From assembly GCA_029565535.1 (NCBI GenBank), contig JAKQNZ010000008.1:1-49911 (forward strand): a stretch of DNA of 49,911 bases. Reading direction: 5' to 3'. The translations under genes and the position numbers were made by a program. The notes under the pieces were generated by a model. The model was given only the letters and a program-made list of their open reading frames with translations, did not search any database and was not told the DNA's origin. The DNA is from Candidatus Cloacimonadota bacterium (GTDB lineage Bacteria; Cloacimonadota; Cloacimonadia; Cloacimonadales; Cloacimonadaceae). How positions within the stretch are numbered: position 1 is the stretch's first letter; every line of letters begins with the position of its first letter. This document shows positions 19,747 to 24,123 of this stretch, one piece after another.

Positions 19747-19764
19747 CAAAGAATGAGGATGCCC

Positions 19765-20694
19765 ATGTTTGATCGCATTCTAAAACAGACCATAATGAAC
19801 CGGGTTCTTTACAGCTTGATTCCGGTTATGTGCTTTGCCATCTACCTGTTTGGTTGGCGAGCTTTGGCAGTAGTGGTTGTAGCCAATCTGGCCGGATACC
19901 TCACCGAATATCTCTTTATCCGGAACAAAAAGGGCGGTAAGGTCAGCATGGCCTGCTTCGTTACCTCGAGTCTGGTAGCGCTTACTTTACCACCAAGCAT
20001 ACCCTTGTGGATTGCAGCTGTTAGCGCCATAATCTCCATTGCGTTCGGAAAGATGGTGTTTGGAGGGTTTGGCACCAATCCCTTCAATCCTGCTATCCTG
20101 GGGCGCACTTTCGTATACATCACTTTCCCAAACCAGATGACGGTTTCCTGGACAAATCCTTTTCAAGGCTTTCCTGGGGGGCTGCTGCAATGGAGTGGGG
20201 GAAAAGTCATGGAAACCGGCGCTACCATTCTGAATCAATTGCGCTTGGGCAAAGAGATCAGCTTTGGCATGCTGGATACCTTTCTCGGAACAGAAACAGG
20301 TTCATTGGGTGAAACATCCGCATTATTGATCATCCTGGCAGCGATCTACCTGATTGTCAGTAAAACAGCCAAATGGCAGCCTATGCTGGGTACGGCTCTC
20401 AGTGTTTTGATTTTCAATTTTATCTTCTATCCTGGTTCCAATCCCTTGTTCTTCTTGCTTAGCGGCGGAGCCTTGTTTGGGATAGTGTACATGACCACAG
20501 ATCCTGTCTCGCAGCCCAAAGGCAAGCTGGCATTGTGGATATATGCTGTGCTGGTGGGGTTCTTAACAGTCTTTATCAGGCGTTTTTCGCTGTTTGCCGA
20601 AGGTTTCATGTTTGCCCTGCTATTGGCCAATTCTGTGATGCCCTTGATCGAATACGGCTTGGAACGAATTCAGAGCAAGGGGGTTAAGGCATGA
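19765..20694 (+). CDS. nqrB: Na+-translocating NADH:quinone reductase subunit B (NqrB/RnfD family)
   Basis: Integral membrane subunit that carries covalent FMN and probably the sodium path. About 309 residues with many hydrophobic segments. FGGFGTNPFNPAILGRT and GSLGETSALLIIL are family motifs, and Thr 154 in METGAT is the likely FMN-linked residue. At 309 residues it is shorter than Vibrio NqrB (about 410) and nearer RnfD in length, but the operon partners are Nqr-type. The ATG at 19765 has GAGGA 5 nt upstream; ATG codons at 19753 and 19759 are alternatives. No nqrA precedes it: the upstream gene is the PASTA protein. Its end overlaps nqrC by 4 bp. Confidence 0.88.
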   Translation: MFDRILKQTIMNRVLYSLIPVMCFAIYLFGWRALAVVVVANLAGYLTEYLFIRNKKGGKVSMACFVTSSLVALTLPPSIPLWIAAVSAIISIAFGKMVFGGFGTNPFNPAILGRTFVYITFPNQMTVSWTNPFQGFPGGLLQWSGGKVMETGATILNQLRLGKEISFGMLDTFLGTETGSLGETSALLIILAAIYLIVSKTAKWQPMLGTALSVLIFNFIFYPGSNPLFFLLSGGALFGIVYMTTDPVSQPKGKLALWIYAVLVGFLTVFIRRFSLFAEGFMFALLLANSVMPLIEYGLERIQSKGVKA

Positions 20695-21362
20695 GTAATA
20701 CTCCCTTCAAGGAAACGGTGTTTTACCCGGTAGTCTTTATGTTGCTTATCTGCATTGTGTTTGTTGGAGTGCTGGCTGTGATGTTTCGCAGCAGCGAACC
20801 CAAGATCAAGGCATACCAGAAGGACAGCTATCAAAGGATGATTCTGGAGCTATTTGCTCCTGATCTGGCAAGCCTGTCTTCCGACACTCCTGAAACGATT
20901 CTGGCTTCCTATCCGGAAAGTTATAATTCTTACATCAAGGCTATTCAGCTTCCTGGGATCGAGAGACAAAGCTTTCAAGCCGCTTATGGGGACAGCTTGC
21001 TTGGCTATTGCTTTGATATCGGAGGAAAGGGATTATGGGGCAGTATGCGAGCTTTGGTTGCACTAACCCCAGACCTGAAGAAAATGAAGGGGATGCTGAT
21101 TTACGACCAGATGGAAACCCCTGGTCTGGGTGCGAGAATCTCTGAGGCATGGTTCTTAGACCAATTCAAAAACCTGCCTGTGATAGATCTTAACACAGGG
21201 CAGGTGCAGCGTTTCGAGCTGATACCCGAAGGCAAAAAATCCGAAAGCAACCACCAGATTATGCAGGTGACGGGCGCTACCATAACTACCAATAGCGTCA
21301 TTAAAATGATCTCCGACGAAATAAACTACATTCATAATCCTTCTGCGGGAGTGCGGCCATGA
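20691..21362 (+). CDS. nqrC: Na+-NQR subunit C
   Basis: Periplasmic FMN-binding subunit with one N-terminal membrane helix (about 12-32). The segment GKGLWGSMRALVALTPD and MLIYDQMETPGLGARISE follow the NqrC pattern (GKGLW rather than the GYxGPI of RnfG). Thr 197 in VTGATITTNSV is the FMN attachment site by family rule. It has 223 residues and overlaps nqrB and nqrD by 4 bp each. Confidence 0.92.
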   Translation: MSNTPFKETVFYPVVFMLLICIVFVGVLAVMFRSSEPKIKAYQKDSYQRMILELFAPDLASLSSDTPETILASYPESYNSYIKAIQLPGIERQSFQAAYGDSLLGYCFDIGGKGLWGSMRALVALTPDLKKMKGMLIYDQMETPGLGARISEAWFLDQFKNLPVIDLNTGQVQRFELIPEGKKSESNHQIMQVTGATITTNSVIKMISDEINYIHNPSAGVRP

Positions 21363-21955
21363 CAAAGAAGCAGATTTTTATCACCAGCGCTTTCACCGAA
21401 AACTCCGTATGGCGCCAGATACTAGGTATCTGTTCTGCTCTGGCGGTTACGAATCTGATGATGAATTCGCTGATCATGGGTTTGGGCGTTACATTCTCGC
21501 TGGCTTTATCAGGCTTTACCATTTCTCTGATCAGAAACTGGACTCCACGCAGCGTTAGAATGATGGTGCAAACCCTCATCATAGCGGCGTATGTGATTAT
21601 TGTGGATATCTTTCTAAAGGCAAACATGCCTGATATCAGCAAGCAATTGGGGCCTTACGTAGGGCTTATCATTACAAACTGCATCCTGATGGGACGGGCA
21701 GAGGCCTTCGCTTCGCAGAATACACCACTTGATTCAATGATCGATGGCATCGGAGCCGGGGTGGGATATTCGCTGGTATTGCTGCTTATCGGCTTTATCA
21801 GAGAGCTCTTTGGCTTTGGCAGCATCTTTGGGATTAAGGTGTTGGGTGCCTGGTGGACTCCCTGGTCGATCATGGTAATGGCTCCTAGCGCTTTCTTTAT
21901 TCTGGCAATGCTGATCTGGATCATCAACATTAAGTATTACAAATCAAAGGGGTGA
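21359..21955 (+). CDS. nqrD: Na+-NQR subunit D
   Basis: Small membrane subunit, 198 residues with about six hydrophobic helices. LGICSALAVTNLMMNSLIMG, SGFTISLIRNWTPRSVRMMV and GLIITNCILMGRAEAFA are diagnostic for the NqrD/RnfE pair; the Cys in NCILMGRAE is a ligand of the intramembrane Fe centre shared with NqrE. Overall it is closest to NqrD. It is coupled to nqrC by ATGA. Confidence 0.94.
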   Translation: MTKKQIFITSAFTENSVWRQILGICSALAVTNLMMNSLIMGLGVTFSLALSGFTISLIRNWTPRSVRMMVQTLIIAAYVIIVDIFLKANMPDISKQLGPYVGLIITNCILMGRAEAFASQNTPLDSMIDGIGAGVGYSLVLLLIGFIRELFGFGSIFGIKVLGAWWTPWSIMVMAPSAFFILAMLIWIINIKYYKSKG

Positions 21956-21959
21956 TAAG

Positions 21960-22547
21960 ATGGATATCAGCGCATTTGTACTATTTTGGGCTGCGATCTT
22001 CACCAGCAACATACTACTAACCAACTTTCTGGGTATGTGCAGCTATCTGTCGGTTTCCCGAGAGGTGGAGAGTTCTTTTGGCCTGGGAGTGGCGGTGATC
22101 TTTGTGCTAACGGTTACTGCCGGTTTGAACTGGCTGGTGTATCACCTCATTCTGGTGCCCTATAATATCGTTTATCTGCAATATATTGTTTTCATCATCG
22201 TGATTGCCGCCTTCGTGCAGTTCTTGGAGCTGGTGATCGAGCGTTATGCTCCAGCCCTGTATTACACTTTGGGAATCTTTCTGCCGTTGATTACGGTAAA
22301 CTGTGCTATTTTTGGGGTAAGCCTGTTCCTGGTAATCCGTAATTATAGCTTTCTGCAATCCATTTCTTTTGGAGCCGGGAGTGGTATTGGCTGGTTGCTG
22401 GCAATCCTGATGCTGGCAGCAATTCGTCGTAAGCTGAAGGAAAAGCTGGTTCCCCAAGGTCTGCAGGGAGTGGGGATCAGCTTAATCATCACAGGTATCA
22501 TGGCTCTGGCTTTTGTAGGCTTTTCGGGAATCGTGCAGATTCAATAG
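21960..22547 (+). CDS. nqrE: Na+-NQR subunit E
   Basis: Pseudo-symmetric partner of NqrD, 195 residues with about six helices. TNFLGMCSYLSVSREVESSFGLG and LGIFLPLITVNCAIFG carry the conserved cysteines that share the Fe site with NqrD. AAGGGG precedes the ATG at 21960. The gene ends in TAG, showing that TAG is an ordinary stop in this genome, which matters for the nqrF call. Confidence 0.94.
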   Translation: MDISAFVLFWAAIFTSNILLTNFLGMCSYLSVSREVESSFGLGVAVIFVLTVTAGLNWLVYHLILVPYNIVYLQYIVFIIVIAAFVQFLELVIERYAPALYYTLGIFLPLITVNCAIFGVSLFLVIRNYSFLQSISFGAGSGIGWLLAILMLAAIRRKLKEKLVPQGLQGVGISLIITGIMALAFVGFSGIVQIQ

Positions 22548-22556
22548 GGGACGGGA

Positions 22557-22892
22557 ATGTTAACAACTATACTGACAGACATTGCTTTGCTTAGCGCCAT
22601 CAGCGGAGTTTTGGCCATAGTAATGGTAATCGCTGAAAAATGGCTGAGTAATTATGGTGATTGCAAGATAGACATCAATGGCAAGCGCAAGCTTACCGTG
22701 AAAGGCGGAAACAGCCTGCTTTCCTCGCTTACCGAGAAGCAGATTTTCCTGCCCTCAGCTTGTGGGGGAAGAGGCACCTGCGGAGCCTGCAAATGCAAGG
22801 TTCTGAGCGGGGGAGGGCCTCTTCTGCCGACGGAAAGGCCTTTGCTTAGCGCTACCGAACTGAAAGAGGGCAACATCCGGCTGGCTTGCTAG
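22557..22892 (+). CDS. nqrF: NqrF N-terminal part: membrane helix and [2Fe-2S] domain, ends at in-frame TAG
   Basis: First 111 codons of NqrF, the NADH-oxidising subunit. A membrane helix (about 5-27) is followed by a ferredoxin domain with ligands Cys 69, 75 and 78 (ACGGRGTCGACK) and Cys 111 in RLAC. The next codon is TAG (22890-22892), where homologues carry Gln (LACQVxVK). The frame then continues with no gap as VKVKSEINIEIP, the normal NqrF junction. So one CAG to TAG change, a readthrough codon or an assembly error splits one gene. A GGGGACGGGA ribosome site precedes the ATG. The fragment keeps all Fe-S ligands but lacks the flavin and NADH domains. Confidence 0.9.
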   Translation: MLTTILTDIALLSAISGVLAIVMVIAEKWLSNYGDCKIDINGKRKLTVKGGNSLLSSLTEKQIFLPSACGGRGTCGACKCKVLSGGGPLLPTERPLLSATELKEGNIRLAC

Positions 22893-23663
22893 GTGAAAGT
22901 GAAAAGCGAGATAAATATCGAGATCCCGGCTTCCATATTCAATATCCGGCGCTTTGAGGCCACGGTGGCTGAGATTATCGACTACACCTACGATATAAAA
23001 GGAATCCTGTTCAAACTGGCCGATGGCGAATCGATCGACTTTATGGCCGGACAATACGTTCAGCTTGAAACTTCACCTTACGACAAAGTGAAACAAAAGG
23101 TTAGCCGGGCCTACTCCATCTCTTCCAAACCGGAACTGCAGAATGCCTTGCAACTGATCATCCGTTATGTACCCGAAGGAATCTGCACTACTTGGGTACA
23201 TCAGCATTTGAAGCTGGGAGACAAGGTGTTTTTCACTGGCCCTTACGGAGATTTTTTCCTGCGTGATACAGAGGCCGACATCATTTATGTCGCTGGCGGT
23301 TCTGGGAAAGCGCCGATCAAGAGCATGCTGGAACACCTTGCTGAATCCGGCTGTAGACGAAAAATGACCTATTTCTTCGGTGCACGCACCAAGAAAGATC
23401 TCTATTTAACAGATGAAATGACGGCCTTCGAAAATGTCTTCCCGGATTTCAAATACGTTCCTGTACTTTCTGCTCCTGAACCAGGCTGCGACTGGACTGG
23501 GAAAACCGGATTCGTAATGCCATATTTTAAAGATGCTATTCGCGACCCCAAAAACACAGAGGCCTACCTTTGCGGTAGTCCAGGTATGATAAACGCCGTA
23601 ACCAAAGCACTTATGGAAAACGGCATTCCCAAGGAAAAAATATATTACGACAGTTTTGGATGA
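22893..23663 (+). CDS. nqrF: NqrF C-terminal part: FAD and NADH-binding domains
   Basis: Continuation of NqrF in the same frame, 256 codons beginning at GTG directly after the TAG. It contains the FAD motif RAYSISS, the NADH loop GGSGKAPIKSMLEHL, and the C-terminal YLCGSPGMINAVTKALMENG with IYYDSFG, matching the ferredoxin-NADP reductase-like half of NqrF. No Shine-Dalgarno sequence lies at the right distance before the GTG; an AGAGGG is about 24 nt away. Separate translation would need termination-reinitiation. All key motifs are intact, with no second stop or frameshift, so any inactivation is very recent or absent. Confidence 0.88.
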   Translation: MKVKSEINIEIPASIFNIRRFEATVAEIIDYTYDIKGILFKLADGESIDFMAGQYVQLETSPYDKVKQKVSRAYSISSKPELQNALQLIIRYVPEGICTTWVHQHLKLGDKVFFTGPYGDFFLRDTEADIIYVAGGSGKAPIKSMLEHLAESGCRRKMTYFFGARTKKDLYLTDEMTAFENVFPDFKYVPVLSAPEPGCDWTGKTGFVMPYFKDAIRDPKNTEAYLCGSPGMINAVTKALMENGIPKEKIYYDSFG

Positions 23664-23667
23664 GGAA

Positions 23668-24123
23668 ATGAAAGAAACACCTAAAGAGAAACGTATCCGA
23701 GCCCGCATGATGCCCGGGGTGATCACTCTTGCAGGTTTTGTAGGCAAAGACAAACGCAGCTTGAGTGAGATCATCGCTGCCGACGAAAAAGAACTGGAGA
23801 CCCTGGGACGCACCGCCGAGGAAATTGCCCAGCGGATGCAAGCCTTCACCGATGCAACCTTCGACGTCTTCGACGCAAGAACCGTGATCGAAGAAAACTA
23901 CGAAGTGGAAACAGAGGTTATCCGGGGTAAACTGCCCTGTCCCTATGCCCATGGAGGTCTGATCCGAAAACTGGTAACCACTCTAACCAACCGCAGGCAG
24001 AACATCACTGTGAAGTGGACTGCCTTGAATATTCACCTCATTAAAGAACACCATTTCTTTGAAGGAAAAGGCTCAAGCTTTAGAATCGAACCGGCTGTCC
24101 TGGTAAAAGCTCTGTTCGATTAA
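23668..24123 (+). CDS. Conserved protein of unknown function, last gene of the nqr operon
   Basis: A soluble protein of 151 residues from the ATG at 23668 (GAGGAA directly abuts it; a TTG at 23656 inside nqrF is an alternative start). No signal peptide or membrane helix. Notable segments are RARMMPGVITLAGFVG near the start, a charged helix DEKELETLGRTAEEIAQRMQ, then RGKLPCPYAHGG and a C-terminal part KWTALNIHLIKEHHFFEGKG. The cysteine and clustered histidines (PCPYAHGG, HLIKEHHFF) could bind a metal, but this is a guess. I recognise it only as a hypothetical type seen in anaerobes. It lies 4 bp after nqrF, so it is co-transcribed, and it is followed by a terminator. Confidence 0.65.
   Translation: MKETPKEKRIRARMMPGVITLAGFVGKDKRSLSEIIAADEKELETLGRTAEEIAQRMQAFTDATFDVFDARTVIEENYEVETEVIRGKLPCPYAHGGLIRKLVTTLTNRRQNITVKWTALNIHLIKEHHFFEGKGSSFRIEPAVLVKALFD

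Follow-up and report, generated by a model that had tools for sequence, protein, structure and literature searches.

A lone in-frame TAG in nqrF of a Cloacimonadota genome is very probably a lineage-private nonsense substitution

Introduction

The window, a stretch of 49,911 nucleotides from a Cloacimonadota genome, carries an nqrF gene whose reading frame contains a TAG codon directly 3' of Cys111, the fourth Fe-S cysteine. Does this codon mark a recent null mutation, a wrong base in the assembly, a stop that is suppressed or read through, or the junction between two subunits? All four options were raised by the initial annotation, and relatives of the host organism allow them to be weighed. 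The source MAG comprises 2.6 Mb in 234 contigs. The comparison set consists of 61 genomes of the same order, in which the genus is represented by nine species genomes, one per species, and the host species by a single genome.

Results

Translation of the nqrF frame (22557-23663, plus strand) yields 111 amino acids, the TAG at codon 112 and 256 further open codons, closed by TGA at 23661-23663. The TAG at 22890-22892 is the sole internal stop among 368 codons, and 256 open codons would follow it by chance with p of about 1e-6. Both pieces align to consecutive parts of NqrF in the TIGR01941 profile, the first to positions 3-108 and the second up to 404. They likewise match consecutive parts of the V. 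cholerae protein (8a1t_F), which reads RLACQV at the site of the TAG. Taken together, the pieces contain the transmembrane helix and the ferredoxin, FAD and NAD domains, interrupted by the TAG; the translation and these matches bear out the original description of one stop within a complete NqrF. The features of the locus are as follows.

19753-20694, plus strand: nqrB (rnfD-like, 313 amino acids)
20691-21362, plus strand: nqrC (FMN-binding)
21359-21955, plus strand: nqrD
21960-22547, plus strand: nqrE, ending in TAG
22557-22889, plus strand: nqrF codons 1-111, transmembrane helix and the larger part of the [2Fe-2S] ferredoxin domain, with all four cluster cysteines but without the last strand
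22890-22892, plus strand: private in-frame TAG, codon 112; Gln (CAG/CAA) in relatives
22893-23663, plus strand: nqrF codons 113-368 and stop, remainder of the ferredoxin domain with the FAD- and NAD-binding domains; in frame and conserved, beginning with GTG (Val), no Shine-Dalgarno
23668-24123, plus strand: conserved 151-amino-acid gene immediately downstream of nqrF, without a known family

None of the 38 other NqrF homologues that cover codon 112 in the genomes of the order has an internal stop. The codon itself was read in 29 relatives, among them the closest species and the three same-genus species that have the region. It is CAG in 25 and CAA in 4, in keeping with the glutamine that had been expected for the family. 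Spirochaete and Desulfobacteraceae homologues have CAG wherever the codon is readable, and L109, C111, Q112, V113 and K114 are invariant in an alignment of 22 sequences from four groups. The TAG is private to one genome. Since the relatives carry CAG or CAA in intact genes, it is either erroneous or a private mutation, the outcome that the initial annotation had attached to such a finding in sister genomes.

The break had been placed on the boundary between the ferredoxin and flavin domains, and here the evidence points elsewhere. At residue 111 the Fer2 match has reached only position 72 of 77. In plant-type ferredoxins the fourth cysteine is followed by a strand of the sheet. In the predicted model of the read-through protein, whose ferredoxin part is less confident (block pLDDT 54-86), residues 119-122 form a strand, and the flavin barrel opens with its first strand at residue 131. 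The TAG thus interrupts the ferredoxin domain itself instead of falling on its border, an argument against two stable subunits.

Upstream of nqrF lie nqrB, nqrC, nqrD and nqrE, in that order and in one operon, which is intact apart from the TAG. By profile score, NqrD passes one NqrD cut-off, NqrE falls just below its cut-off, and NqrB and NqrC fall well below theirs; NqrB also matches RnfD. No nqrA match exceeds the cut-off in the 61 genomes of the order or in ten additional genomes that have related operons. A weak NqrA match in the host genome sits on the contig of the Rnf-type paralogue, and two of the ten additional genomes, a Desulfobacteraceae genome (G070, 1.4e-76) and a spirochaete (G067, 1.5e-30), have NqrA-like matches below the cut-off. 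The NqrA-less nqrBCDEF operon is an already known arrangement, having been reported in Clostridium ultunense, Pseudothermotoga lettingae and P. thermarum (PMC5924567). In another MAG of the genus (G005), nqrB is frameshifted near residue 185 (L120:1501-2404), through decay or assembly error.

Three genomes of the same genus, each 99% complete, have neither nqrB nor nqrF (G001, G002 and G008). At the corresponding loci (L162, L163 and L164), the series efG-yebC-ruvC-ruvA-rsmB-PASTA is followed immediately by the 151-amino-acid gene (orf155), and nqrBCDEF is cleanly missing. Because the three species group together as one clade (support 1.0) and the nqr operon occupies the same place in the outgroup G033, the most economical reading is a single clean deletion in this clade. 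Seven of the nine same-genus genomes, including all three that lack the operon, have an RnfD-like paralogue on a separate contig; it was not seen in G003 and G006, which are 59% and 80% complete. In the host genome, the contig of this paralogue also bears an RnfC-like match. Thus, with three sister species lacking nqrBCDEF yet keeping Rnf, loss of Nqr is tolerable in this genus.

On the branch leading to the host genome, dN for the part of nqrF after the TAG is 0.053-0.065, as against 0.041-0.052 for the sister G007; synonymous sites are saturated, so that dN alone is compared, with no dN/dS. On neither side of the TAG is dN clearly raised, and the other genes of the operon behave alike. A long-standing pseudogene is rejected on these values. 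The lack of decay around the TAG suggests that the change is very young, or that the base is wrong, or that the protein is still made.

A hexamer-based scan of 402 kb, about 15% of the genome, revealed one more convincing lone in-frame stop; a codon-usage detector had missed the TAG of nqrF. The second stop is a TAA in the gene for a secreted protein (L143:2421-2423, minus strand, contig C212), and the homologues of this protein in the genus are without it. Because this stop is TAA, the lone nonsense lesions in the assembly, which occur at a low rate and are of more than one stop type, are not amber-specific.

Discussion

Rather than a conserved split, recoding or a programmed event, the TAG of nqrF is very probably a lone, lineage-private nonsense substitution. 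A single substitution in codon 112 would have converted the conserved glutamine codon to TAG, and RF1 would end translation after residue 111. The product would be anchored in the membrane and carry an incomplete ferredoxin domain but no FAD/NADH domain, and the complex would then be unable to take electrons from NADH, with presumed loss of enzyme activity. The TAG may thus represent a null allele of very recent origin, in an operon that this genus can lose, or a wrong consensus base in a metagenome assembly. That the null mutation is real and recent seems to us probable, as a matter of judgement and not of computation. In its sequence, the gene resembles a young nonsense pseudogene: the lesion is private, the relatives are intact and there is little decay. 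The host genome appears to have no second NqrF, the operon is otherwise intact and no further lesion is present, a combination that fits a young null or an error and would equally fit an expressed gene.

A consensus or base-calling error, with nqrF intact in the organism, is a sub-case of the same explanation; we judge it possible, although we do not expect it. The change involves a single base, with no other decay and strong conservation on both sides, and the assembly is a MAG of 234 contigs. The frameshift in nqrB of G005, in the same operon, could likewise be error or decay. However, ten genes around the TAG align to their relatives without a frameshift or other stop, so the contig looks accurate, and the site lies in mid-contig, outside any homopolymer. 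It is far less likely that amber readthrough or suppression supplies full-length NqrF at some level, even though the frame after the TAG is fully conserved and no second NqrF was found. The search for an amber suppressor that had been proposed for this locus found no CTA anticodon among 45 tRNAs of the 97% complete assembly, whose tRNA set is itself incomplete (Ile-GAT, for instance, was not found). The glutamine tRNAs are TTG and CTG. No PylS scores above the cut-off in the host genome, where a single match is weak and far below it, and an amber suppressor or pyrrolysine is rejected as far as the recovered sequence goes, although a suppressor in the missing part of the assembly is conceivable. 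RF1 is present above its cut-off, which rules out its loss. TAG terminates 82 of 332 coding-like frames in the 402-kb sample, including nqrE (22545-22547); it is an ordinary stop in this genome, and wholesale recoding is as unlikely as had been supposed. Nor is the RNA in the 100 nucleotides from the TAG better structured than shuffles (z 0.21), and a structured readthrough signal is rejected. The TAG, moreover, is not conserved in relatives. With the TAG private and no readthrough machinery found, a young change or a wrong base is favored over a protein that is still made.

The proposal of a new, two-subunit NqrF, in which Cys111 would close a ferredoxin subunit and reinitiation at GTG 22893 would yield a flavin subunit, draws on the GTG that directly follows the TAG and on the retention of known motifs in both pieces. 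That GTG is, however, a conserved valine codon. Codon 113 encodes the Val of LxCQVKVK and is GTA, GTC or GTG in intact relatives. Shine-Dalgarno pairing before GTG 22893 amounts to -3.5 kcal/mol, which is the background average; the values for nqrC, nqrD, nqrE and nqrF are -12.2, -6.9, -13.3 and -6.4 kcal/mol. Thus no Shine-Dalgarno start signal precedes the second part of nqrF, and neither a terminator nor a promoter was found between the halves. Reinitiation without a Shine-Dalgarno is conceivable, but the conserved valine codon and the lack of this signal led us to reject a restart at the GTG. A conserved split is rejected as well, with all 38 relatives intact, and the last strand of the ferredoxin would land on the other subunit. 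We therefore give the two-subunit enzyme almost no credence. There is only a slight chance that one species alone tolerates UAG readthrough at an otherwise invariant glutamine or makes the halves as separate subunits. Of the four options raised for this locus, null mutation and assembly error stand, given the intact genes with CAG or CAA in relatives; suppression or readthrough is unlikely, and a two-subunit enzyme is not supported.

A private nonsense substitution thus remains the preferred reading, and its setting can be compared with known systems. NqrF of this locus shares with its counterpart in the Na+-NQR of V. cholerae the transmembrane helix, the [2Fe-2S] ferredoxin, FAD and NAD domains, their order and the RLACQV motif; the putative pump described here differs from that of V. 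cholerae in the TAG after the fourth cysteine, the lack of nqrA and a shorter NqrB. The operons of C. ultunense, P. lettingae and P. thermarum show the same nqrBCDEF order with no nqrA in the genome, and C. ultunense and P. lettingae have a separate Rnf operon (PMC5924567), similar to the situation here. In contrast to those operons, nqrF here has a stop. An ordinary young bacterial pseudogene would show the same private lesion, intact remaining gene and dispensability of function in relatives, but the TAG of nqrF differs in that it may be an assembly error.

The striking position of the break, right after a cluster cysteine, loses its meaning on comparison with sister genomes, and the TAG is of little importance by itself. 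If the mutation is real, the host species would have independently lost a pump that was cleanly deleted in a sister clade, in line with the notion of the NqrA-less Nqr as a spare next to Rnf in the genus.

A more promising lead than the TAG is the uncharacterized conserved protein encoded beside these NqrA-less operons. Its gene, of 151 amino acids, comes after nqrF in each of the 30 loci inspected in the order, and it is also found after nqrF in KSB1, in Spirochaetaceae and in the cultured Ilyobacter polytropus. It is a feature of the Cloacimonadota operon with respect to the known systems, a comparison made on the Cloacimonadota side only. Because the gene survives in the three sister species that lost nqrBCDEF, the protein is not simply an Nqr subunit. 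Neither Pfam nor NCBIfam has a family for it, and a search of the PDB with its predicted model gave no significant fold match. The fold is nonetheless predicted with confidence (pLDDT 93), and Cys91, His123 and His128 are invariant.
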